Part shown: piece by piece, positions 21,995-34,993 of the stretch | Layout of the letters: every line of letters starts with the position of its first letter | Position numbering within the stretch: position 1 is the first letter of the stretch | DNA from: Candidatus Eiseniibacteriota bacterium | GTDB lineage: Bacteria > Eisenbacteria > RBG-16-71-46 > CAIMUX01 > WJJG01 | Direction of reading: 5' to 3' | DNA length: 44,329 nucleotides | Assembly: GCA_023129715.1 (NCBI GenBank) | Contig: JAGMBO010000016.1 | Span: forward strand, 1-44,329 | Notes under the pieces: generated by a model | Seen by the model: only the letters and a program-made list of their open reading frames with translations | What the model was told of the DNA's origin: nothing | Database searches by the model: none | Translations under genes and position numbers: made by a program

Positions 21995-23203
21995 ATGGAA
22001 ATTCTCTGCTTCGGCTCGGCAGACTACGAGGAACCCAACTGGGTCAACGCCCAGCACCTGATGTCGCGGCTGGCCGAACACCACCGGGTCCTCTACGTCA
22101 ACAGCCTCGGACTACGCGTGCCACGCGCCAACCGCCGCGATCTGCGCAAGGTCTGGCGCCGCCTGGCGGCGCCGGTGCGTGGGCTCCGGCGTCCCGATCC
22201 GGCCCGGGAACTGTTCGTCTACTCCCCGCTGACCCTGCCACCCCTGCGCCTGCCGCTCGCCCGCCACGCCGGCAGCGCCCTTCTGGCCGGTGGCCTGCGC
22301 CGCGCTCTTACCCGTCTCGGTTTCACGCGTCCCCTCACCTGGGCCTTCTTGCCCAGCGCTGCCCCGGTGCTGCGCCGTCTCGCCCTCGGGCCGGTCGTCT
22401 ATCATTGCGTCGACGCCTACGAGGCCAACCCGGGCGTCGATCCAGATCTGGTGCGGATGCTCGAGGACGACATCCTCGCGCAAGCCGCCGCCGTCGTCGC
22501 CGTTTCCCCGCCGTTGGTCGAGCGCCTCTCCCGGCGCCATCCGCGCGTCGTCTGGATGCCGAATGTCGCCGCGATCGAAGCCTATCCACCCCCCAGCGAC
22601 AAGCCCTCCGAGCCGCCGCAGCTCGCCGACCTGCCTCGGCCGCGCCTCGGCTACCTCGGAAACCTCGCCGGCTACAAGTGCGATCTGCCCTTGCTCGCGC
22701 GTGCCGCGCGCCGCCGTCCCGACTGGCAGTGGGTCTTCATCGGCGCCGTGGGCCAGGGGGAAGCCGACACGCCGCTGGGGGAGCTCCGCCGTCTGGCGAA
22801 TGTGGTCATGCTCGGCCCCCAGCCCCGGGAGCGCCTCGCCGCGTTCGTCCATCACCTCGACGTCGGCCTGATCCCGGCGCGCCCGGGAGCCTCGACCCGC
22901 CACGCCTTTCCGATGAAGTTCTTCGAGTACTGGGCCTGCGGCCGCCCGGTCGTCAGCGCGCGCCTCCCAGCCCTCCAGGATCACCTCGTCCCGCCGCTCG
23001 CCTTCGGCTACGACGACGGGGAAAGCTTTCTCGCGGCGATCGGGGAAGCCCTGGCCAGCGATGCCCCCGCCCATGCGGCGGAGCGCCGCCGGCGGGCCGA
23101 GACCCACTCCTGGGAGCGTCGCATACCGGAGGTCGAGGCGCTGTTGGAGACCTTGGTGCGGGAGGCTCACCAGCGATCGGCGACGAGCGTGTATTCTCCA
23201 TAG
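21995..23203 (+). CDS. Glycosyltransferase (TuaH-like family)
   Basis: A 402-residue glycosyltransferase whose ATG lies four bases past the previous stop, with GGGAGGATGAATCG before it. The start EILCFGSADYEEPNWVNAQHLMSRLA, then VYHCVDAYEANPG, PNVAAIEAY and MKFFEYWACGRPVVSARLPAL, resemble the TuaH-like group involved in teichuronic acid or exopolysaccharide synthesis. Its last 37 bases overlap the convergent GWxTD gene end to end, so the two transcripts would be antisense at their 3' ends. Confidence 0.85.
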   Translation: MEILCFGSADYEEPNWVNAQHLMSRLAEHHRVLYVNSLGLRVPRANRRDLRKVWRRLAAPVRGLRRPDPARELFVYSPLTLPPLRLPLARHAGSALLAGGLRRALTRLGFTRPLTWAFLPSAAPVLRRLALGPVVYHCVDAYEANPGVDPDLVRMLEDDILAQAAAVVAVSPPLVERLSRRHPRVVWMPNVAAIEAYPPPSDKPSEPPQLADLPRPRLGYLGNLAGYKCDLPLLARAARRRPDWQWVFIGAVGQGEADTPLGELRRLANVVMLGPQPRERLAAFVHHLDVGLIPARPGASTRHAFPMKFFEYWACGRPVVSARLPALQDHLVPPLAFGYDDGESFLAAIGEALASDAPAHAAERRRRAETHSWERRIPEVEALLETLVREAHQRSATSVYSP

Positions 23204-24465
23204 CCGGTGCGATCGACGAAGACGAAGCGCAGCCCCAAGCGATCGTAGTGCCAGACCTCAACCGGCGGTCCCTCGATCCGGAACGTGCGCCGATCGATCA
23301 AGTCGGGCTCGCCATGCGTGACGTAGATGCGCCCGCGGTCGGTCTGCCAGCCGGGACGGGTGCCGCCGAACTGTGCGTTGGCATAGCGCAGGCGATCGAA
23401 AAACTCCGCCTTGAAGTCGTTCTCCGCGGTCTCCGGGGTCGGGTCGCGCCGGTGCCAGAAGGCTTCCCACGCGGCGCGGCGTTCTGCCGGAGCGGCCATG
23501 CGCAGCTGCTGGACCTCCTCGGCCGGGGCGACACAGGCGAGCGCATCGAGCGATTCACGGAAGAAGCGGGCCAGGGCAGCATCGGATTCGACCAGCAGAC
23601 CAAAGGTCGCACTGCCCCGCGCCCGGCGGCCGTCGGCGCTGACGACGGCATCCACGCGATAGGTCTCGAGCCAGAGATCGTCGAGGTCGATCGACCAGCC
23701 AAGTGCGGTGGCTTGCCCCCCAGCGGAGAAGTGTGCCGTGCCCTCACGCAGCAGCTCGCCCCCCCCGATCTCCCGGGTGAGACTCCAATGGAGCTCGATC
23801 TCTTCGGGCCGGCTATCGGGATGGAAGAGCTCGGTGTAGACGCACAGGGGTCCCTGGGGATCGACAAACTCAGTTTGGATCCGGGGATCGAAGAAGAGAT
23901 CGGCGACCCGGCCCTCGAGACCACACTCCCCCAGCAACAGCGGCGCGAGGCGCAGTTGGCCGGGAAAGACGGGTTCCAGACAGACCCCCAGGGCGAGCCG
24001 CCCCTCGTGGCCCGAGCAGGGCTCGGAAAGCGCCACCTCGATCCGATAGCAACCGGGCGCCAGGGGAAGGAGCAGCTCCCGGGTATAGCGGGCCTGCCGC
24101 CCATAGAGCTCCGCCCGCCCGTCGACATGGATCCGTTCGGAGTAGAGGTCACCCGCAACCTGGCGGTCATCGAGCAGCACGAGCACGATGAGATCAAACT
24201 CAGCCACCATGCCCCCGCTCTCTTCCTTGCGGAAGCCGAGCTCCTGATAGGGAACCTCGACGTGCAGCGCCGCCAGGGAACGTTTCTCCTCCAGCAGGGA
24301 CACGACCCGCGCGGAGAAGGTCGGCCGCTGGCCATGAACCGCCCGGCCGGGCAGATCCTCCCCCCAGGCCAAACTCGACAGGCTGGCCGCAACCATTAGG
24401 CCACAGGCAATGCGGCCGGGCGACCGGCTCGTCGCGCCCCGCAGGCACCGAACGCCCCGCTCCAT
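23167..24465 (-). CDS. GWxTD domain-containing exported protein
   Basis: Exported protein of unknown function, 432 residues from the ATG at 24465, chosen for its GAGGAG site and the signal peptide it opens (cleavage near AWG-ED). The middle is mostly beta-rich, and the C-terminus holds the GWxTD signature as PGWQTDRGRIYVTHGEPD, followed by WHYDRLGLRFVFVDRTG. The domain is known mainly from FCB-group and related bacteria, where it is associated with surface or gliding-related proteins without a proven role. No such machinery is visible nearby. It has its own predicted promoter and is transcribed away from the Clp-like gene. Confidence 0.85.
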   Translation of the reverse strand: MERGVRCLRGATSRSPGRIACGLMVAASLSSLAWGEDLPGRAVHGQRPTFSARVVSLLEEKRSLAALHVEVPYQELGFRKEESGGMVAEFDLIVLVLLDDRQVAGDLYSERIHVDGRAELYGRQARYTRELLLPLAPGCYRIEVALSEPCSGHEGRLALGVCLEPVFPGQLRLAPLLLGECGLEGRVADLFFDPRIQTEFVDPQGPLCVYTELFHPDSRPEEIELHWSLTREIGGGELLREGTAHFSAGGQATALGWSIDLDDLWLETYRVDAVVSADGRRARGSATFGLLVESDAALARFFRESLDALACVAPAEEVQQLRMAAPAERRAAWEAFWHRRDPTPETAENDFKAEFFDRLRYANAQFGGTRPGWQTDRGRIYVTHGEPDLIDRRTFRIEGPPVEVWHYDRLGLRFVFVDRTGYGEYTLVADRW

Positions 24466-24487
24466 GGCCGACTCCTCGTCTCTTGCT

Positions 24488-24515
24488 AATTTACTGTCCC
24501 ACATACAGTTGCCAA
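24488..24515 (-). promoter_or_regulatory. Predicted promoter for GWxTD gene
   Basis: On the minus strand, TTGGCA (24515-24510), a 16-base spacer and TAAATT (24493-24488), matching five and four of six consensus bases. The surrounding sequence is markedly more AT-rich than the rest of the window. The leader would be about 15 bases. Confidence 0.5.
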
Positions 24516-24660
24516 ACTACATCCCCGTCCCGACCCGGCCATGGTACCCTATCGCTCCCCTCCAAACCAGGCGTCGATACCAGACTCCGGTGTCAACGAA
24601 GGCGCCCGGCATGCCGAACCTGGAATAGGAGGCCTGCGTCTTGGAAAGCATGGGGGAAAA

Positions 24661-25725
24661 ATGGGCAAAGCGCAGAAGGATCGCCAGCCGGCGCGCAAGA
24701 AAAAGAAGAAGAGCGCCGCGGTCGACAGGAAATCCCAGCCTAAGACGAAGCGTGGCTCCGCCTCCCGCACGCGATCCGCCGACGGGCTGTCCCCGACCGA
24801 GAAAGAGGTCCTTCTCAATCTCGAGGAGATCCTCAAGCAGCGCATCGTCGGCAAGGACGAGGCGATCAAGCGCATTGCCAATATCATCCGCATCCGGCGC
24901 ACCCATCTCGACTTCCGACCCGACCGTCCCGACGGCGCCTTCTTGATCGTCGGCCCTGCGGGCGTCGGTAAGACCGAGTTCGCGCTGGCCGTCGCCGAGG
25001 TTCTGCTCTCCGGCGAAGAGCAGATGATTCTGCTCGACATGGCCGACTACACCGAGGAGGCCGATCTCGACGACCTCCTGGTGACGCTTTTCCCGGGCGA
25101 TACGGACACGTTGATCGAGGGCTCGCTCACCTCCCCGGTGCGTGAGAACCCGCGCGCGGTTCTGCTCCTGCGGGGTCTGGAGCACGCTCATCCCAGTGTG
25201 CAGCGCCTCCTGCTGCACATTCTCGACCGGGGCACGCTCACCGATGCGCAGGGGGCGGTGAGTTTCAACCAGACCGTGATCTTCGCCACGACGCGCCTGC
25301 ACCCCGATGAGAGCGAGACGGTCTCGCAGATTGGGTTCAATCGCCAGAGTCTCTCGCGCGATGAGCGCTGCCGCAAGATGCTCGAAGATCAGTTCACGCC
25401 CGAACTGGTCGCTGCTTTCAACGAGGTGCTCTACTTCCACAAACTCTCGGCTGCCGATGTCCGCCAGATCGCCCGCTACAAGGTCAATAGGGTGCTCGAG
25501 CGCCTGCGCGCCCAGAAACGCGGCGTGGTCGTCAGTGAGAAGGTCTATGATGCCTTCATCACCGACGATGAAGTCCGCAGCGCCGGCGCCCGCTACCTGA
25601 ACCGCGCCCTCGAGGAAAAGCTCTTCACGCCCCTCTCGAAATACCTGCTCACGCATGGCGAGGCGCACAGCATCGCCGTCGATGTGCGCGGCAACCGCGT
25701 GGTTATCCATCAGCCGGGCGAGTAG
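24661..25725 (+). CDS. Degenerate Clp/HSP100-like AAA+ protein
   Basis: A 354-residue protein that aligns along its length with the second AAA+ module of ClpB/ClpC. The start follows GGGGGA. Residues 1-45 are lysine-rich and probably disordered. Walker A is intact (GPAGVGKT, 98-105) and the sensor-2 GAR is present (309-311). Three parts are lost. The Walker B region reads AVLLLRGLEHAHP, with Arg171-Gly172 where Clp proteins have Asp-Glu. The pore loop GYVG is replaced by GDTD (146-149). The arginine-finger region RPEFxNR reads TPELVAA (246-252). ATP binding may persist, but hydrolysis and substrate threading look unlikely. The 3' end overlaps the convergent phosphorylase gene by 16 bases. The role is unknown. 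Confidence 0.8.
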   Translation: MGKAQKDRQPARKKKKKSAAVDRKSQPKTKRGSASRTRSADGLSPTEKEVLLNLEEILKQRIVGKDEAIKRIANIIRIRRTHLDFRPDRPDGAFLIVGPAGVGKTEFALAVAEVLLSGEEQMILLDMADYTEEADLDDLLVTLFPGDTDTLIEGSLTSPVRENPRAVLLLRGLEHAHPSVQRLLLHILDRGTLTDAQGAVSFNQTVIFATTRLHPDESETVSQIGFNRQSLSRDERCRKMLEDQFTPELVAAFNEVLYFHKLSAADVRQIARYKVNRVLERLRAQKRGVVVSEKVYDAFITDDEVRSAGARYLNRALEEKLFTPLSKYLLTHGEAHSIAVDVRGNRVVIHQPGE

Positions 25726-26588
25726 CCCGAGGCGGACGGTGCCCCTGCAACCCAGCCACGGACGAGACGATCGATCGCCCGCGCCAAGCGCGGACCGATC
25801 TCGCCGGCGGCGGCCACAACCTCGCCATGCTCCAGCGGGCGCCCCGCGAGACCCGTCGCCAGATTGGTGACCATCGAGATGGCGATCACCTCGAGACCGA
25901 GGCGGGCGGCCTCCTCCGCCTCGATGACGGTCGACATGCAGGCAACGGTCGCCCCGGCACGCCGGATCATCGCCACCTCGGAAGCCGACTCATAGGTGGG
26001 ACCGAACCCGCCGAAGAGCACGCCATGCTGCACGCGCATGCCCTCTGCGCTGATCTCTCGGAAGGCCTCCACGCTGCGCCGCGCATGGTAGGGACTGCCG
26101 CGCAGGCAGGGTCCCGGCTGCGCGCCACGAGAGGCGCGCAAACCCAGAACCAGCCGGATGTGATCGTCGATGACGAGCACGCTCCCCGCCGGCACGCCGG
26201 GATCGACCGATCCGGAGGCGTTCGAGAGAATCAGCCACTCGGCCCCGAGCGCCGCGGCGAGGCGCACGGCGAAGGTGACCTCCGCACGCCCGAACCCCTC
26301 GTAGAAGTGCACGCGCCCCTGGAAGACGAGTCCCGCCTTGCCCTCCCAGTCGACGATCGCCAGACGCCCCGCGTGGCCGGGAACGCTCGATGCGGGATAG
26401 CCCGGAATCGCATCCGCCGCGAGGATCGTCTCCGGCTCCCAGGAGTCGAGCAGAACCCCGAGTCCCGAACCGAGCACGATCGCTCCCGCGACCGGCCGGT
26501 CGCCGCACGCCGCGCGCACCAGCTCCTGGACTGCGGGGGTGATTCCGGCTCCCGCAGGCCGTTCGCACCCTGCGTCACCCGGGCCCAT
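25710..26588 (-). CDS. Purine nucleoside phosphorylase (trimeric PNP/MTAP family)
   Basis: Splits purine nucleosides with phosphate into base and ribose-1-phosphate. The 292 residues match the class I trimeric family: phosphate-site LGSGLGVLLD, PGHAGRLAIV, QGRVHFYEGF, the loop SNASGSVDPGVPAG (family NAAGG), FGPTYESASE (family GPxFETPAE), CMSTVIEAEEA and the purine-site VTNLATG with its Asn. The departures (Tyr-Glu-Ser, Ser-Gly-Ser) leave substrate choice (guanosine or inosine versus methylthioadenosine) open. AGGTG precedes the ATG. It lies 47 bases after the second permease, as the last gene of that minus-strand unit. Confidence 0.9.
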   Translation of the reverse strand: MGPGDAGCERPAGAGITPAVQELVRAACGDRPVAGAIVLGSGLGVLLDSWEPETILAADAIPGYPASSVPGHAGRLAIVDWEGKAGLVFQGRVHFYEGFGRAEVTFAVRLAAALGAEWLILSNASGSVDPGVPAGSVLVIDDHIRLVLGLRASRGAQPGPCLRGSPYHARRSVEAFREISAEGMRVQHGVLFGGFGPTYESASEVAMIRRAGATVACMSTVIEAEEAARLGLEVIAISMVTNLATGLAGRPLEHGEVVAAAGEIGPRLARAIDRLVRGWVAGAPSASGYSPG

Positions 26589-26635
26589 ACCGACACCTCT
26601 CTCCTTGCGCCACGCAACTCCAGGGGCGAACGCGG

Positions 26636-27556
26636 CTAACCTTCGCCCTCGGGATCATAGGGTCGACCGAGGGCAGCCGGTCCGATCGATCGTCCCACCC
26701 AGAGCACCAACACCACAATCGTGAGGACAAAGGGCAGTGACTGCAAGAGCTGGGTCGGGATCGCGGCGCCCTGGAGGCGAATCTGGGCGGTCTCCGCCGC
26801 CCCAAAGAGCAGACAAGCCCCGGCAGCCCCCAACGGGTGCCATTTCCCGACGATCATCGCCGCCAGCGCGATGTACCCGCGCCCGTTCGACATCTGATCG
26901 GTGAAGGAATGCTGCGCGAAGGCGAGCCAGGCCCCCCCCAACCCACCCAGGAGACCGCTGGCCAGCACGCCGAGCCAGCGCAGCCGGGCGACAGAAAAGC
27001 CCGCCGAGTGGGCCGCCTCCGGGTGCTCGCCCGCCGTGCGCACGGCCAGCCCGAGGCCGGTGCGGAAGAAGAACCAGATCGCGCCGAGGACCAGAAGCAC
27101 CGTCAGCAGGAAGAGCGGATCGTAGAGAATCTCGCCCAAGGGCGTGTCACCACCCGGCCAGCGACGAGCCTGGGCAAAGTTGGGGGCCGGAATCCGGGGC
27201 GAGTTGCTTGCGCTGTGGAACAGCGTCCGCAGTCCGGCGCGGGTTAGGCCGAAGGCGATGATGTTGATCGCCAGCCCCGAGATGATCTGATCTCCCCGCA
27301 GGGTCACCGTGATCAGCGCATGCACCGCGGCCGTCGCCAGTCCTCCGACCATCGCGCAGAGAATCCCGACGAAGGGGGACCCGGTGAAGTAGGTTCCAAC
27401 CACAGCGCAGAAGGCGCCCTGGAGCAGAATCCCCTCGAGGGCGATGTTGACCACCCCGCTGCGCTCGGAGAAGACGCCCCCGACGGCCGCCAGCCCATAG
27501 GGCACACTGATCCGCAGGGTCTGCGCCAACAAGGAGAAGATCGCCGCGAGGCCCAT
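26636..27556 (-). CDS. Nucleoside ABC transporter permease 2 (BMP family, NupQ-like)
   Basis: Inner-membrane permease of 306 residues with about eight hydrophobic spans. The N-terminal block PYGLAAVGGVFSERSGVVNIALEG is diagnostic for the BMP-type nucleoside permease pair. TLRGDQIISGLAINIIAFGLT and YIALAAMIVGKWHPLGA are also family blocks. Its ATG shares one base with the stop of the first permease. It would form a heterodimer with that permease and be driven by the ATPase encoded at 30273-31850. Confidence 0.9.
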   Translation of the reverse strand: MGLAAIFSLLAQTLRISVPYGLAAVGGVFSERSGVVNIALEGILLQGAFCAVVGTYFTGSPFVGILCAMVGGLATAAVHALITVTLRGDQIISGLAINIIAFGLTRAGLRTLFHSASNSPRIPAPNFAQARRWPGGDTPLGEILYDPLFLLTVLLVLGAIWFFFRTGLGLAVRTAGEHPEAAHSAGFSVARLRWLGVLASGLLGGLGGAWLAFAQHSFTDQMSNGRGYIALAAMIVGKWHPLGAAGACLLFGAAETAQIRLQGAAIPTQLLQSLPFVLTIVVLVLWVGRSIGPAALGRPYDPEGEG

Positions 27557-28662
27557 TATGCCGGCTCCTCCCCTCCCCCGCCCGCCGGGGGCAATGCCCC
27601 CCGCCGCCGCTTCCAGCGTACCCGCATCTGTTCACCCACGATGAAGACCAGCAGGATGACCCCGGTAAGGATCTCGACGACCTCGCGCGGCAATAGGGTG
27701 TTGACCACGAGACCTGCCTGCGAGAGCACTCCGAAGAGCAGCGCGGCCGGCACGACCGCCAACGGCTCGTTGCGCGCCAGCAGCGCGACCGCGATGCCGA
27801 GGAAACCGATGCCTCCGCTGAATCCATCCTCGTAGTAGTGCTTGTATCCAAGAACGAAGTTCGTCCCGACGAGGCCCGCCAGGCCGCCCGCGATCCCAAA
27901 GGCGAGCACGATCCGCGGCCCCGGGGAGATCCCCAGCATCCAGGACTGGCGCCGCCCGCGGCCGACCGCGCGCATCGTCAGCCCCAAGGACGTGTGGTGC
28001 AGGAAGAAATGAGCGCCGACGACGCAGGCGACCGCCAGCCAGAGGCTCGCATTGGCCGCCGATCCCCGCATCGCGGGGATCCAAGCATCGAGGCGCGACA
28101 GAAAGGCGCCACTCCCCACCTCGGCCGTGCGGACCGTCTCGGGCAGGCCGAGGTAGCGGGTGATCAGGAAGTTCGAGAGCGCCAGGGCAACGAAGTTGAG
28201 CATGATCGTGTTGATCACCTCGTGGCTTCCCCAGCGCGCTTTCAACCACCCGGGAATCAATCCCCAGAGCGCGCCCCCGAGAAAGGCGGCCCCGACGGCG
28301 GCGGGGAGCTGCAGCCAACCGGGCGCACCGGCAAAGGCGAGGCCCGCGAGGGCACAGGCGAGGGACCCGACGATCGCCTGCCCCTCGGCGCCGATGTTGA
28401 ACAGCCCGGCGCCGAAGGCGAGAGCCACCGCCAGTCCGGTGAAGATGAGAAAGGTCGCCTTGTAGAGAACCTGGCCCCAGGCATAGGGCCCGAAGCGCGA
28501 GACGAGCAGACGCCACAGCTCGACCGGCGCGACGCCCAGCAGCAAGGCGATGCCCGTCGCCAGGAGCAAAGCGACGCATAGGGCTGCCAGGATTGGGAGC
28601 ATGTACGCGGCAGTTCGCCGCAAGGGCGCACCCGCGCACCAGCCGAAGGAGAGTACGTCCAA
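27556..28662 (-). CDS. Nucleoside ABC transporter permease 1 (BMP family, NupP-like)
   Basis: Inner-membrane permease of 368 residues with about nine or ten hydrophobic spans. Blocks typical of NupP/YufP are TFLIFTGLAVALAFGAGLFNIGAEGQ and GSHEVINTIMLNFVALALSNFLI. The start is a TTG with GGAGG six bases upstream. Oddly, it is separated from the matching ATPase and binding protein by an oppositely oriented membrane-protein gene and a palindromic element, whereas these genes are normally contiguous. It must therefore have its own promoter, which I do not see clearly. Confidence 0.9.
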   Translation of the reverse strand: MDVLSFGWCAGAPLRRTAAYMLPILAALCVALLLATGIALLLGVAPVELWRLLVSRFGPYAWGQVLYKATFLIFTGLAVALAFGAGLFNIGAEGQAIVGSLACALAGLAFAGAPGWLQLPAAVGAAFLGGALWGLIPGWLKARWGSHEVINTIMLNFVALALSNFLITRYLGLPETVRTAEVGSGAFLSRLDAWIPAMRGSAANASLWLAVACVVGAHFFLHHTSLGLTMRAVGRGRRQSWMLGISPGPRIVLAFGIAGGLAGLVGTNFVLGYKHYYEDGFSGGIGFLGIAVALLARNEPLAVVPAALLFGVLSQAGLVVNTLLPREVVEILTGVILLVFIVGEQMRVRWKRRRGALPPAGGGGEEPA

Positions 28663-28736
28663 TCCCTACCTCCACCGAGCGTATTCACCTACACTCTAGC
28701 GGCGCGCAGATCCCGTCGCATCCGAAAAACGGCTTG

Positions 28737-28755
28737 CGCCCCCGTGGGGGCGTTT
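28737..28755 (+). terminator. Hairpin followed by TTT
   Basis: CGCCCCC pairs with GGGGGCG across a tight loop (28737-28752), followed by TTT. It sits between the divergent NupP-like and GT-C genes, directly before the latter's start. It could hinder antisense read-through or sequester the start region. It is too small to call firmly. Confidence 0.3.
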
Positions 28756-28767
28756 CCAGAATGCGCC

Positions 28768-30123
28768 ATGCCTCGCCCATCCCACGCCCTACCTCCCAAC
28801 GCCGCCGGCGCACGGCGGCGGTTCCGCTGGCTCCTCTGGGGCGCGGTCCTACTCCTGCTGCTCTGGGTGCCGCTGACGACCGGATTGCGTTTCCCGGCGA
28901 AGATGGACGAGGCGAGCTATCATCTGCCCAACGTCGCGCGCTTTCTCGATCATTTCCCGACCCTTGAGGAGCTGCGGGCGACCGATCTCTCGATGCTCCC
29001 GCTCTTCCACGGCGCCTTGGCCCAGGCCGCCCGTCTGACGGGTGCGGGACTTCCGGCGCTGCGTGGATGGATGATGTCGATCGGGCTCCTCGCCCTATGC
29101 GGATACGCGCTTCTCGCCCGCCACGCCTGCGGGGCCCCCCCGACGCGCAGCGCGCTCGCGCTGGCCGCCTTTCCCTACTTCGGCGTCTGCTACTTCACGC
29201 TGATGACGGACTATCCTGCCTTTCTGGCACTCGTCGCCGCCCTGCTCGGGCAGGTTGACTACCTGATCGGGCGCCGTGCGCGGGGACTCTGGCTGGCAGC
29301 CTTCGGCGGACTACTCGCCTGCCTGATCCGCCAGAATCTGATCGTCTTCTCGGGTGTCTTCGCGCTCCTCGTCGCGATCTCCCACCTCGGACGGGGGGGC
29401 CTCCCGCGGCCCATCCCCCGCATTCCGCCCCCCTGGGTGATCGCCGCCTTGGTGCTCCCCTTTGTGGGCCTCGGATTCCAGCTCCTGCTCTGGGATGGAC
29501 TCCTGCCCCCCGCCTACATGGCGCGCCAGGGCTACTTCCGTTTCGACCTCGCGACCTACCTGCTGGCTCTCTTGAGCACCGCGGCCAACGTCGGCTACTA
29601 CCTGATTCCCGCGGCGCTCGCCGACGCGCTGCACCGCCGCACAGGCTTGCGACTGCGCACCGCAGGGATCCTCCTGCTGCTCACCCTCGGCGGGTGTGGC
29701 GCGGCCTATGCTCTGCGCGGCGCCTTCCTGGTCAATACCTACGGCACCTTCAAGCATGCCCTCGACTTCACCGGCGCTCACGCGGGACTCCCCGCCCGCC
29801 TGCTGCTCTACGCCGCAGCCCTAGCCGCCTTCCTCTGGCTGGTCTACCGGGTGCTCGCCCGCCTGCGCGCCGCCCGCGGGGGCGATCCAGGCAACCTGCT
29901 CCTGCCGCTGCTCTTCGCCGCCTCCTGGGTGGTTCTGGCCTTCGGCCTCGCGCGCATCTACGAGCGTCACATCCTGCCCCTCTATGCCCTCGGGGTGCTC
30001 GTCCTGCAGCAGACCCAGGGCGAGGAGGCGGATGCCCGACTCCCCGCGCTCGGCTGGCTGGGGGTCGCTCTCTTCGGCGCCGCCCACGGCGTGCTCTATG
30101 CGATCACGGTCTACGAGCTGTGA
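28768..30123 (+). CDS. Polytopic membrane glycosyltransferase-like protein (GT-C fold)
   Basis: Predicted inner-membrane protein of 451 residues with about ten hydrophobic spans. The first periplasmic loop carries the acidic pair in KMDEASYHLPNVARFLDHFP, as in GT-C transferases. The MDE-x-YHLP pattern and the later RIYERHILPLYALG recall the ALG10/DIE2 and related polyprenyl-phosphate-sugar families. The ATG at 28768 lacks a good ribosome site; a GTG at 28744 is possible but lies inside a hairpin. It is the only plus-strand gene in this part of the nucleoside island and splits the transporter genes. Substrate unknown. Confidence 0.65.
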   Translation: MPRPSHALPPNAAGARRRFRWLLWGAVLLLLLWVPLTTGLRFPAKMDEASYHLPNVARFLDHFPTLEELRATDLSMLPLFHGALAQAARLTGAGLPALRGWMMSIGLLALCGYALLARHACGAPPTRSALALAAFPYFGVCYFTLMTDYPAFLALVAALLGQVDYLIGRRARGLWLAAFGGLLACLIRQNLIVFSGVFALLVAISHLGRGGLPRPIPRIPPPWVIAALVLPFVGLGFQLLLWDGLLPPAYMARQGYFRFDLATYLLALLSTAANVGYYLIPAALADALHRRTGLRLRTAGILLLLTLGGCGAAYALRGAFLVNTYGTFKHALDFTGAHAGLPARLLLYAAALAAFLWLVYRVLARLRAARGGDPGNLLLPLLFAASWVVLAFGLARIYERHILPLYALGVLVLQQTQGEEADARLPALGWLGVALFGAAHGVLYAITVYEL

Positions 30124-30142
30124 TGATGCTCTCAATACGCGA

Positions 30143-30256
30143 GACGCCCGCGGGAAGACGCAGAGCGGTCTGTTAGGAGGGGCTGATGGAGTGCGGTTTG
30201 ACCGCACGGAGTCCGCCCCGACGTGCCAGACCGTGCAGCGTCTTGCCGCGGGCGCC
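30143..30256. repeat. Long palindromic element between convergent genes
   Basis: Arms of 30 bases (30143-30172 and 30227-30256) pair at 25 positions. Inside is a perfect hairpin, GTGCGGT and ACCGCAC around TTG (30191-30207). The element almost fills the 149-base gap, starting 19 bases after the membrane-protein stop and ending 16 bases before the ATPase stop. It may act as a bidirectional terminator or be a small mobile palindrome. There is no T-run. Confidence 0.75.
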
Positions 30257-30272
30257 CGCCAACAAACCGCAG

Positions 30273-31850
30273 TCATCGAGACTCGCTGATCGTCTCCCTC
30301 TCCGGAGGATCAGCATCGAGCGGCAGCATGCCGACCATCGCGCGTCCGAGGAACTCGACATCGATCGCGGTGCGCGCCCACGCGCGGCTGAGCCGGCCCC
30401 GGTAGAGCACGGCGACGGAATCGGCGAGCGCGAGGATCTCGTCGAGGTCGGCCGAGATCAGCAGCACGCTGCCGCCCGCGCGGCGCACCTCCCGCAGCAG
30501 ATCATGAAGAAACGCGGTGCTGCCGAGGTCGATGCCGCGGGTCGGCTGGGCGGCAACCAGGATCGGAGCGTGGCGGGCGAATTCGCGCGCGCAGAGCAGC
30601 TTCTGCTGATTGCCGCCGCTGAGCGCCTCGGGCGTCAGATCGGCGCGCGGTGGCTGCACTCGGAAGCGATCGAGCAGCGGCTGGGCCCAGCGCCGTGCAG
30701 CCCCATGGGAGTACCAACCCCAGCGCACGACGGAGGCGTCGGCGAGATGCCCCAACAGCAGGTTTTCCCAGAGCGGCAGGCCCGGCACCAACCCCTCGGT
30801 CGTGCGATCTTCGGGAATCAGCGCGGGACGCAGCGCGGGCGGTACGCGCTGGCCGGGACCAATCCGGGTCTCGCCGATCCTTAGGCTGCCGCGGTCGAAC
30901 GTCCGCCGGCCGGACATCACCTCGGCCAGCTCGCGCTGCCCATTGCCCTGCACCCCGGCAATGCCGACGATTTCGCCGCGATGGAGATCGAGAGAGACCC
31001 CGGCCAGCAGGGCGCGCCCCGCCGCGTTGACAACACCGAGCTCTTCCGCCACCAGCACGCGCACGCCGCCGGAGGCCTGAGCGCTCCGCTGCGCGCCCCC
31101 CCCGATCGTCGCCGTCGGCCGGGCGCCCTCGCCGATGATCCACTGCACCAGGCGGTCATGATCGAGCTCGTCGCGAGCCAACTCCCCCACCACGCGCCCC
31201 CGGCGCAGGACGGTCACGCGATCGGCGATCGCGAGCACCTCGGCCAGTTTGTGGGTGATGAAAACCACGGTGCGGCCCTCGTCGCGAAACCGCCGCAAGA
31301 TCCGAAAGAGCCCGTCGACCTCGGGCGGCGCGAGCACCGCGGTCGGCTCGTCGCAGATCAGCAGCCGGGCACCATGGAAGAGCAACCGGGCGATCTCGAC
31401 CCGCTGGCGCTCCCCCACCCCGAGCGATTCGACCGGCGCGTGAGGATCGAGGTCGAAACCATAGTCATCGAAGAGGCGGCGCAGGCGCGCGGCGAGCGCC
31501 CGGCGCGGCAAGCGGCGTAGCCCGCGCTGGCCCGGAAACCCGAGAACGATGTTCTCGAGCACCGTCATCGGGGGCACCAGCATGAAATGCTGGTGGATCA
31601 TGCCGATCCCGTGACGCAGAGCCACCGCGGGCGAGGCGATCTCCACCGCCCGACCGTCGATCTCGATCGTGCCCCGGTCGGGTTGCAGCAGGCCGTAGAG
31701 GATCCGCATCAGGGTCGACTTGCCCGCGCCGTTCTCCCCGACAAGCGCATGGATTGAGGCAGGCCGCAGGTTCAGATCCACGTCGGTATTCGCGATCGTC
31801 TTCCCGAAGCGACGCTCGATGCCGATCAGACGGACGGCGGGCGCCTGCAC
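30273..31850 (-). CDS. Nucleoside ABC transporter ATPase (duplicated ABC domains)
   Basis: Cytoplasmic ATPase of 525 residues with two fused ABC domains, as in NupO/YufO and sugar importers. Domain 1 has Walker A GENGAGKST, signature LGVGERQRVEIA and Walker B LLICDEPTAVL. Domain 2 has the altered Walker A GVQGNGQRE, signature LSGGNQQKL and ILVAAQPTRGIDLG, the usual asymmetric pattern in which only the first site is fully catalytic. The start is GTG with GGGAGG seven bases upstream. It lies 78 bases after the BMP binding-protein gene. Confidence 0.93.
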   Translation of the reverse strand: MQAPAVRLIGIERRFGKTIANTDVDLNLRPASIHALVGENGAGKSTLMRILYGLLQPDRGTIEIDGRAVEIASPAVALRHGIGMIHQHFMLVPPMTVLENIVLGFPGQRGLRRLPRRALAARLRRLFDDYGFDLDPHAPVESLGVGERQRVEIARLLFHGARLLICDEPTAVLAPPEVDGLFRILRRFRDEGRTVVFITHKLAEVLAIADRVTVLRRGRVVGELARDELDHDRLVQWIIGEGARPTATIGGGAQRSAQASGGVRVLVAEELGVVNAAGRALLAGVSLDLHRGEIVGIAGVQGNGQRELAEVMSGRRTFDRGSLRIGETRIGPGQRVPPALRPALIPEDRTTEGLVPGLPLWENLLLGHLADASVVRWGWYSHGAARRWAQPLLDRFRVQPPRADLTPEALSGGNQQKLLCAREFARHAPILVAAQPTRGIDLGSTAFLHDLLREVRRAGGSVLLISADLDEILALADSVAVLYRGRLSRAWARTAIDVEFLGRAMVGMLPLDADPPERETISESR

Positions 31851-31928
31851 GCGGATGCCTCCCTGAATGGTTCGGAGGTGCCCACGGGGGGCGACCGAAC
31901 GCCTGCACCGCCGGGGCCTCCCGCGCCC

Positions 31929-32945
31929 CTACTCCGCCGGCACCTCGATCTCGCCGGCGGCGATCTGCTCGGCGATCGCGCTCAGTCGCGCCTCTCGCTC
32001 CGCGGTCACCCACTGACGATTCGACGCGTCGCGCACGTAGTCGACGCCCTCCTCTTTCAGCCCGAAGACGCGCACTCCGCTCTCGAAGCGTCCCTCGAGG
32101 GCGCGGGCAACCTCGTCGTAGACGGCGCGATCGACGCGCTTGATCATGCTGGTCAACACATACCCCGGCGCCTCGGCCGATTGATCGGCGTCGACACCGA
32201 TCGCCAACCGTTCTTTCGCACGGGCGGCTTCGAAAACCCCCAGGCCGGTCGAGCCGGAGGCATGGAAGATGATGTCGGCCCCCTGCTCGTACTGCGCCAG
32301 GGCCAGTTCCTTGCCCTTCGCCGGGTTCTTGAAGGCCGCGCCGGTCACCCCGGCGTAGTTGATCAGCACGCGCATCTCTGAATTGATGTGCCGGGCTCCC
32401 GCCTGGTAGCCCGCCTGGAACTTGTGAATCAATGGGATGTCCATGCCGCCGATGAAACCGATCGTGCCCGTCTCGCTGACCATCGCCGCCAAGGCGCCAA
32501 CGAGAAAGGATCCCTCCTCCTCGCGGAATTTCAAACCGACGACATTGGGGGGAATCTCCCGGCCCTCATTCCAACTGTAGTCGACGCAAATGAACTGTTT
32601 CTCGGGGAAGTCATCGGCGACGCCGTTGATATCGTCGGTGAAGAGGAAACCGACTCCGATGATCAGATCGGCATCCCCCTGGGCATAGAGCCGCAAGGCC
32701 GCCTCGCGGTCGGAGCTCTGCGTTGGCTCGAAGTACTCGAAGCTGACGCCGCGTTCGTCCCGCGCGCGCAACAGGCCCTGATAGGCGAGGTCGTTGAACG
32801 ACTTGTCCCCCAGTCCCCCGACATCGAAGACGAGCCCCACGTGAAAATCGGCGCGGCTCTGCTGCCGCTCGCCTCCACCACAACCGGCCGCGAGTAGCAA
32901 CGCGAGCGCCATGCCGACTACAACCGCCCAGTTCCTGGGCTTCAT
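31929..32945 (-). CDS. BMP family nucleoside-binding lipoprotein
   Basis: Periplasmic substrate-binding lipoprotein for the nucleoside ABC transporter, 338 residues. The signal peptide [22 protein letters not shown] ends in a lipobox with Cys22, a substrate for Lgt. The mature protein has VGLVFDVGGLGDKSFNDLAYQG, the Bmp/PnrA/TmpC hallmark, plus GFIGGMDIPLIHKFQAGYQAGA, IIFHASGSTGLGVFEAA and IGVDADQSAEAPG. AAGGAGG precedes the start. The ATG overlaps the tdk stop as ATGA, joining transport to salvage in one transcript. Confidence 0.95.
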   Translation of the reverse strand: MKPRNWAVVVGMALALLLAAGCGGGERQQSRADFHVGLVFDVGGLGDKSFNDLAYQGLLRARDERGVSFEYFEPTQSSDREAALRLYAQGDADLIIGVGFLFTDDINGVADDFPEKQFICVDYSWNEGREIPPNVVGLKFREEEGSFLVGALAAMVSETGTIGFIGGMDIPLIHKFQAGYQAGARHINSEMRVLINYAGVTGAAFKNPAKGKELALAQYEQGADIIFHASGSTGLGVFEAARAKERLAIGVDADQSAEAPGYVLTSMIKRVDRAVYDEVARALEGRFESGVRVFGLKEEGVDYVRDASNRQWVTAEREARLSAIAEQIAAGEIEVPAE

Positions 32946-33559
32946 GCTTCCTCCTTGCCTCCCGCGCTGTCGCGCTCGGGGAACAGGTCACCCGATCCCT
33001 CCGCGGGCTGTTGGTAGCATCGGCGGCAGCGCGGCTCATAGGCCTCCGAGCCGCCGACGAGAATCTGCTCCCCGCTGCCGACCACCCGCTGCGTGCGGTT
33101 GGCGGGATTGCCGCAGATCACACAGACAGCATGGGTCTTGGTGATGAACTCCGCAACGGCCAGTAACGCGGGTACCGGTCCGAAAGGACGGCCGCTGTAG
33201 TCGGTGTCGAGCCCCGCCACGATGACCCGCTTGCCGGCGTCGGCCAGCTCCTCACAGACCTCGACGATCGTCGCATCGAAGAACTGGACCTCGTCGACAC
33301 CCAACACCTGCGCCTCTCGCCCCAGGTCGAGGATCTCACGAGGATGGCGCACCGGACGCGAGGGGATACTGATCCGATCGTGGGTCACGAGTTGGTCGGT
33401 GGCATAGCGATCGTCGACGACCGGCTTGAAGATCGAGACCCGCTGACGGGCGATCTGCGCCCGCCGCAGCCGGCGAATCAGTTCCTCGGTCTTGCCGCTG
33501 AACATGCTCCCACAGATCACCTCGATCCAACCGGTTCCCCGGGGCGTGCCGAAGGTCAT
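32942..33559 (-). CDS. tdk: Thymidine kinase (type II)
   Basis: Phosphorylates thymidine (and deoxyuridine) with ATP. The 205 residues carry Walker [12 protein letters not shown], the Walker B-like GVDEVQFFD, the lasso and thymidine-site region [14 protein letters not shown], and zinc ligands [13 protein letters not shown]...CRRC. It overlaps udk upstream and the BMP gene downstream as ATGA on both sides. Confidence 0.97.
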
Positions 33560-34305
33560 GGCCGGCGCTCCCGGCGGGCACGGGGCCGGCGCTGAGAGTA
33601 CAAGATCGAGCGAATCTTGGTCACCAGCAGATCAATCGCCACATGATTGTGCCCTCCCTCCGGAATGATCACGTCCGCGTAGCGCTTGGAGGGCTCGATG
33701 AATTGCATGTGCATCGGCCGGACCGTCTCCTCGTATTGCGCGAGCACCGACTCGAGGGTCCGCCCGCGCTCGGAAACGTCACGCTGAATGCGGCGGAGCA
33801 GGCGGATGTCGGAATCGGTGTCGATATAGACTTTGATATCCATCAGCGCCCGCAGCAATGGATCGTCGAGGATCAGAATCCCCTCGATGATGATGATCTG
33901 GCAGCCCGACACCGAAATCGCTCGCCGCGTGCGCAAGTGGCGCTTGAAGTCGTAGACCGGCATCTCGATCGCCCCGCCCTCGAGCAGAATGCGCAACTGC
34001 TCGGCGAGCAGGTCGCGGTCGAAGGCATCAGGATGGTCATAGTTCTGCCGGCGGCGTTCCTCGATCGGCAATCCGTTGAGGCTCTTGTAGTAGGAATCCT
34101 GCTTGATGATGTAGACCTTGCGCGAGCCGAGGTCCTCGGTCACGCGCTGGGCGACCAGCGTCTTGCCCGAGGCACTCCCACCGGCGATTCCGATCAGCAC
34201 GCGCCGCTGCGGCGCGGGCGGGGTCTCCGCCATTTCGCGCGCGGGCGAGCGCGGCGACCGCTGCCCCACCGTGCGACCCTTCCGCTCTTCGCTCGCGCGG
34301 GCCAT
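33556..34305 (-). CDS. udk: Uridine kinase
   Basis: Converts uridine and cytidine to UMP and CMP. It has Walker [29 protein letters not shown], the [10 protein letters not shown] block and IIEGILIL, all typical of Udk. The frame is open to 34338, but I chose the ATG at 34305 (249 residues) because GAGG sits seven bases upstream and the upstream kinase ends one base before it. About 30 disordered N-terminal residues precede the P-loop, so a start at the later MAETPP is possible. The arginine-rich C-terminal tail is unusual. Confidence 0.94.
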
Positions 34306-34306
34306 G

Positions 34307-34993
34307 CTAGGCCTCACCCGCTCCGGTCGCCGAGGCAACGCCCCGTTTCCCCGCGTGGCCCTCCTGGGCTACGCGGATCTCGGCGACGATTTCATCAATC
34401 AATCCCTGCTCCGGAGGAAAAGCGATCTGCTCGGTCTCGATCGTCAGGATCGGGCAGCGGCCCCGCACGCTCGCGATCCAGCGCGCGTACGCCGCCTCGA
34501 GCTGGGCGAGATACGCCGGGGTGATTCCCGTCTCGCAGGCACGCCCCCGCTGGGCGATGCGCGCCACCAGCGCCTCGGGCCGGGCCTTCAGATAGAGGAG
34601 CAGGCCCGGGAAGGGCAGCAGTTCGACCATCTCGCGGAAGAGCGAGAGGAAACTCTTGAACTCGCGCTTCTCCATCGCCCCGCGCTCGTAGAGCACGCGG
34701 GCGAAGATCTCTCCATCTTCATAGATGGTCCGGTCCTGGATGAAGGGCGCCGAACGCTCCACGAAGCGCTTCTGCGCCTTGAAGCGCTCCGCCAGCAGGT
34801 AGATTTGCAGGTGGAAGGCCCACCGCTGCATGTCGGCATAGAACGCTTCCAGGAAAGGGTTCTCGGCAACCGGCTCGTAGTAGACATCCCAGCCGGTGCG
34901 TTCTGCGAGCAGGCGCGCGAAGGCCGACTTCCCCGCCCCGATGTTGCCGCAGATTCCGACGAAGAACCCTTGCGCTGATTGGCCCAGACTCAT
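34307..34993 (-). CDS. Deoxynucleoside kinase (dAK/dGK/dCK-like)
   Basis: Cytoplasmic kinase for deoxyribonucleosides, 228 residues from the ATG at 34993, which has GAGGA six bases upstream. It has Walker A GICGNIGAGKS, the substrate-site VYYEPVAENPFLEAFY, RTIYEDGEIFARVLYERG and the lid region RIAQRGRACETGI. The family is typical of deoxyadenosine/deoxyguanosine kinases in Gram-positives and FCB bacteria. Exact base preference cannot be read here. It lies between hpt and udk in the salvage operon. Confidence 0.9.
   Translation of the reverse strand: MSLGQSAQGFFVGICGNIGAGKSAFARLLAERTGWDVYYEPVAENPFLEAFYADMQRWAFHLQIYLLAERFKAQKRFVERSAPFIQDRTIYEDGEIFARVLYERGAMEKREFKSFLSLFREMVELLPFPGLLLYLKARPEALVARIAQRGRACETGITPAYLAQLEAAYARWIASVRGRCPILTIETEQIAFPPEQGLIDEIVAEIRVAQEGHAGKRGVASATGAGEA

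Follow-up and report, generated by a model that had tools for sequence, protein, structure and literature searches.

A conserved Clp D2-like protein with lost catalytic motifs and an H1-like basic tail in one bacterial order

A gene on the analysed stretch of DNA (44,329 nucleotides, hereafter the window) encodes a protein related to the second AAA+ module of ClpB and ClpC, and the locus raises the question for what purpose a Clp domain is kept once the parts of its motor are missing. Pseudo-enzymes are well studied among kinases and less among bacterial AAA+ machines, and a Clp protein with missing motor parts and a tail of the DNA-binding type is unusual among bacterial Clp proteins. The product, named pseudo-Clp in the following, is probably a pseudo-AAA+ protein with a structural or regulatory role and not an enzyme.

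Gene, domains and predicted fold

The start ATG of the gene is preceded by GGGGGAAAA. Both domains of the Clp D2 type, AAA_2 and ClpB_D2-small, are present in the window protein (Table 1). The NCBIfam profile of ClpB matched with 5.6e-57 over profile positions 550-852 of 853, which is the D2 part, at a score of 193.7 bits that is far below the cut-off of 1232.1 for full-length ClpB. The best PDB match was ClpC with 5.2e-47, other ClpC and ClpB entries were weaker, and the identity to the D2 of ClpB and ClpC amounted to about 31-36 %. These matches are far beyond chance and confirm the relationship to Clp D2 proposed in an earlier note on this DNA.

Table 1. Positions of the pseudo-Clp gene, its domains and motifs, and the divergent neighbour gene
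Feature	Position in window	Strand	Remarks
ORF encoding pseudo-Clp	24661-25725	+	354 aa; ORF bounds match exactly
N-terminal H1-like basic tail, residues 1-45	24661..24795	+	16 K/R, 3 D/E, pI 11.8; disordered in model
AAA_2 large domain, Clp D2 type, about residues 46-257	24796..25431	+	Pfam PF07724 2.4e-30; fold match ClpB NBD2
Walker A GPAGVGKTE, residues 98-106	24952..24978	+	K104 invariant in 9/9; residue 105 Thr/Ser in 5, Asn in 4
Pore loop 1 place, residues 143-150, LFPGDTDT	25087..25110	+	GYVG absent in 9/9; low model confidence
Walker B position, residues 165-177, RAVLLLRGLEHAH	25153..25191	+	Asp to R171 (Arg in 8, Gln in 1); Glu to G172 (9/9)
Sensor-1 position, residues 206-213, VIFATTRL	25276..25299	+	Asn to R212 (Arg in 8, Thr in 1)
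Arginine-finger position, residues 244-254, QFTPELVAAFN	25390..25422	+	R252 to Ala in 8/9
ClpB_D2-small domain, residues 262-332	25444..25656	+	Pfam PF10431 3.1e-09
Sensor-2 GAR, residues 309-311, within ClpB_D2-small			Kept in window protein and rest of taxonomic family f1; lost in other four
GWxTD-domain gene, divergent neighbour	23167..24504	-	Pfam PF20094 8.1e-14

The AlphaFold2 model reached a pLDDT of 76.4 and a pTM of 0.72, with a fold that was partly expected since the input alignment consisted of the window protein and six Clp relatives, normal Clp included. Residues 1-38 were disordered (pLDDT < 50), and the regions 142-152 and 215-231 were weak; the place of the lost pore loop falls among the latter. 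Foldseek matched the model to ClpC and ClpB, including NBD2 of ClpB (4fcv) with an E-value of 4e-27, a TM score of 0.89 by target and 35 % identity; the earlier note had suggested a structure prediction with ClpB D2 as reference. The window protein is a single Clp/HSP100 D2 fold. With NBD2 of ClpB and ClpC it shares the fold, the order of AAA_2 and D2-small and the Walker A motif; in contrast to these, it stands alone without N-domain, D1 and M-domain, carries an H1-like tail and lacks Walker B, pore loop, sensor 1 and, in most members, the arginine finger. A 397-aa open frame runs antisense to the gene (window 24517-25710, - strand), probably an effect of the high GC content, and shadow frames of this kind are found all over the window.

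Motif losses in nine species

Eight orthologues with 46-64 % identity to the window protein were found in relatives, four of them in species of the same taxonomic family (f1) and four elsewhere in the order. The nine members represent nine species of four taxonomic families, have mutual identities of 43-69 % and are all open frames. A profile built from the core domains of all nine yielded 462-527 bits on the members and at most 217.5 bits on any other Clp of the phylum. The gene is present in nine of the eleven species of the order, and the core-domain profile search detected no orthologue among 36 other species of the phylum. For the two order species without a match absence is not established, because the genome of G010 is only 68 % complete and the contig of G005 starts within the phosphofructokinase gene, the expected neighbour at this locus. 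In two further large phyla, with 393 and 386 genomes, no member was found at E 1e-70, a negative that is weakened since no more than the five or six best first-look candidates of each genome were scored. As far as seen, pseudo-Clp is restricted to one order. In the tree the nine members formed one clade (SH-aLRT 100) on a stem of 2.24 changes per column; the tree was calculated by a quick method with long branches flagged, thus it does not settle the parent paralogue.

The motifs of the nine members were compared with those of 43 normal Clp D2 domains. The window protein has LLLRGLE against the canonical LLLDEIE at Walker B, FPGDTD against PPGYVG at the pore loop, TTR against TSN at sensor 1 and TPELVAAFN against RPEFLNRID at the arginine finger. 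The earlier note had read Arg-Gly, GDTD and TPELVAA at three of these places, all correct on the alignment; it recognized the loss of Walker B and pore loop and missed the loss of sensor 1 and the retention of sensor 2. A misalignment of the motifs is ruled out, as the alignment to the 43 normal Clp is gap-free over Walker B and sensor 1. Both Walker B acids are gone in all nine members (RG in eight, QG in one), as are the aromatic pore loop GYVG and the sensor-1 Asn, and pocket arginines were gained at the Walker B Asp and the sensor-1 Asn positions in eight members each. The loss of the arginine finger, also claimed before, holds for eight of nine, the window included, but not for L009, which alone retains the Arg (PELVSRFN). 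L009 (1510-2778, - strand) has this residue though it is without Walker B, sensor 1 and sensor 2, and is a candidate for an action like that of LAP1 discussed below.

Two further residues were lost in all nine members: the Thr at the third position of Walker A (T100 position, equivalent to ClpB T597) and the conserved Arg after beta-2 (R124 position, by position equivalent to ClpB R621). The Walker A Lys is invariant. For the Mg-binding residue behind it, the five f1 members have Thr or Ser and the four others Asn, these being the same four without the sensor-2 Arg; both changes coincide with one split of the tree and may be one event. In NBD2 of ClpB, hydrolysis requires the sensor-1 Asn and the sensor-2 Arg, nucleotide binding does not (PMC3940203). 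Judged from the sequence, catalysis and threading can be excluded with high confidence, in line with the failure of both predicted in the earlier note.

Pairs within f1 showed a pN/pS of 0.26-0.63 and a dN/dS of about 0.13-0.5, which shows purifying selection on the coding sequence. Several positions are invariant in the nine members and not in normal Clp, namely K65, D84-F85, I224-G225-F226, F253, A271-R272 and K274-V275. Purifying selection and these new invariant positions argue that the protein is kept for a purpose other than threading. A search of related genomes for orthologues with the same losses had been proposed before, and close relatives with intact motifs had been named as counterevidence: the losses of Walker B, pore loop and sensor 1 are shared in nine of the eleven order species, and no such intact relative was found. 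The losses thus belong to a conserved family with vertical conservation in one order and not to a local mutation. By the AAA+ fold, the conserved loss of catalytic residues and the purifying selection, pseudo-Clp would be classified as a pseudo-AAA+ protein. The single remaining domain and the lost catalytic residues could also be seen as traces of a decaying Clp pseudogene, but nine open frames in four taxonomic families, their single clade, a pN/pS well below 1 and the new invariant positions rule this out, leaving a practically negligible probability.

Other origins were rejected as well. The viral Clp relatives that were found keep an intact Walker B, which speaks against a phage origin, and PADLOC gave for a defence protein generic AAA matches only. 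Three candidates for other stand-alone D2 proteins were discarded: L068 proved to be a normal Clp in which bases are masked, L072 sits at the start of its stretch, and L023 has normal motifs. The other three matches in the same genome are full-length Clp proteins with 32-33 % identity, counted as having intact D2 motifs. The third of these, L004 (G000:C134:5791-6492), is divergent, with altered motifs (a PGLVGY pore loop, PEQMNR, GIRPLRS at sensor 2) and a long branch of 1.51.

The basic tail and the neighbouring genes

All nine members have a K/R-rich N-terminal tail of about 45-150 aa with 25-40 % K/R and a pI of about 12, in agreement with the stand-alone protein with a basic tail described in the earlier note. 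The cores behind the tails are mostly acidic (pI 5.4-7.1). The tail of L012 comprises 105 residues from its real start, and the window tail is the shortest of the nine and contains some acidic residues. GC3 in the window is 84 % in the tail as in the core and 50 % in the 120 bases upstream; across the members tail GC3 is 66-93 %, core-like and mostly above the upstream sequence. Shine-Dalgarno-like (GGAGG-like) sequences precede several or most of the member starts. Coding-type GC3 and these sequences indicate that the tails are translated, and a wrong start with an untranslated tail was rejected. The tails are Lys/Arg-rich and of H1-like composition, with disorder predicted for that of the window protein, and resemble each other in composition, not in sequence. 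The Pfam families of H1 and Hc1 had no match in the nine members at E-values up to 0.01, and a sequence search of four genomes revealed no other proteins with such a tail. Bacterial H1-like proteins of the Hc1/Hc2 and AlgP type consist mostly of tail, rich in K/R with A, S, T and P and with a pI of about 12; the tail of pseudo-Clp is alike in composition, but is joined to a folded body of the pseudo-AAA+ type. RNA, polyphosphate, membranes and acidic proteins are further possible ligands of basic tails.

Flanking DNA was available for seven loci, and in each of them the genes of pseudo-Clp and the GWxTD-domain protein are arranged head to head. In two of the seven, both from other taxonomic families, a phosphofructokinase gene lies in between on the GWxTD side. 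In three order genomes (L039 10322-12811, L042 10491-12939, L097 1-2285), a phosphofructokinase gene is located just before the GWxTD gene and in the same orientation, and the taxonomic family of the window has none at the GWxTD site. The GWxTD product starts with a hydrophobic, signal-like stretch, which makes a direct contact with pseudo-Clp unlikely. The term GWxTD was absent from open papers in a word search. On the other flank in f1, a purine nucleoside phosphorylase gene and a nucleoside-type ABC transporter converge with pseudo-Clp. They belong to a cluster for nucleoside uptake and salvage conserved in f1 (window 25710-34338, - strand), in the order purine nucleoside phosphorylase, two permeases, ABC ATPase, Bmp/PnrA-type binding protein and then apparent thymidine kinase and uridine kinase genes. 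No clp gene adjoins pseudo-Clp in the loci examined.

A tethered scaffold and its alternatives

Inactive AAA+ subunits such as D2 of NSF, the clamp-loader delta subunit and the ORC type have domains kept for assembly and not for hydrolysis; they belong to other AAA+ clades and normally work within a defined hetero-oligomer. For pseudo-Clp, the best explanation is a non-catalytic Clp-fold scaffold that would be anchored to nucleic acid through its tail, to which we give an even chance. The tail would bind DNA or another polyanion non-specifically, the D2 body would be a folded module for assembly and protein docking, and the Arg that replaces the Walker B Asp would sit at the Mg2+ site, freezing the pocket in one state. 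In ClpB NBD2, R621 is able to sit between T602 and D667, the expected position of Mg2+ (PMC3940203), thus Arg171 may occupy this place. Several points count against the scaffold: the invariant Walker A Lys is hard to explain for a pocket without any ligand, basic tails have the other possible ligands named above, and the tails share composition only, without a Pfam H1/Hc1 match, the one in the window being the shortest and having some acidic residues. As a bolder version, pseudo-Clp could tentatively be regarded as a lineage-specific nucleoid protein, whose dead D2 would self-assemble or dock active Clp on DNA and whose arginines at the Mg2+ site would fix the assembly independently of ATP hydrolysis.

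Pseudo-AAA+ proteins are already known, and LAP1 and LULL1 may be taken as the nearest functional analogy. LAP1 has an AAA+ fold without nucleotide-binding motifs and activates the Clp-type ATPase Torsin through an arginine finger (PMC4358337). The luminal domains of LAP1 and LULL1 share with pseudo-Clp the non-catalytic AAA+ fold and the tie to the Clp-type ATPase family, taken here as an analogy; LAP1 is eukaryotic and membrane-anchored and keeps the finger without nucleotide motifs, whereas pseudo-Clp keeps Walker A and has usually lost the finger. Following this precedent (PMC4358337), a dead D2 might insert into or cap ClpB or ClpC rings as a regulatory subunit that inhibits, recruits or activates them, as LAP1 and LULL1 do for Torsin. 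The fold is nearest to the D2 of ClpB and ClpC, and the three full-length Clp proteins of the same genome are potential partners. The finger needed by a LAP1-type activator is, however, Ala in eight of nine members, active Clp is present in all related genomes without the pseudo-Clp gene, and the lack of an adjacent clp gene also speaks against this role, which we consider possible but not probable. It could be true at once with the scaffold.

The earlier note had derived a nucleotide-dependent scaffold from the kept Walker A, in which ATP or ADP would be bound without hydrolysis and the bound state would drive assembly. Such a switch is unlikely. The GxxGVGK motif is invariant in nine of nine members, f1 with the window retains Thr/Ser and the sensor-2 Arg, and nucleotide binding persists in ClpB NBD2 with mutated sensor 1 or sensor 2 (PMC3940203); against it, all nine members lack T100 and R124, which contact the ligand, and the loss of the Walker A Thr/Ser (to Asn) together with the sensor-2 Arg in four members makes an ATP switch improbable as shared function. 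The invariant Lys stands, but no general rule follows from it, and nucleotide binding, if any, would not be a requirement common to all members in canonical form. Even less can be said for an active ATPase with another catalytic arrangement, e.g., E174 in place of the Walker B Glu. E174 and K104 are invariant, yet E174 aligns with the Glu that canonical Clp has besides the catalytic one (LLDEIE) and is no replacement, and with sensor 1 missing, and the arginine finger in most members, this reading is highly improbable.

A word search of open papers found no description of a bacterial pseudo-ATPase that combines a Clp D2 domain with an H1-like tail; the earlier note likewise knew of no family with this pattern of losses. 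The members represent a series of losses dated by phylogeny, catalysis in all and then the metal-binding and sensor-2 residues in some, and form a natural set for asking which role the AAA+ fold has without ATP hydrolysis. The H1-like tail fused to the Clp fold hints at a connection with the nucleoid.
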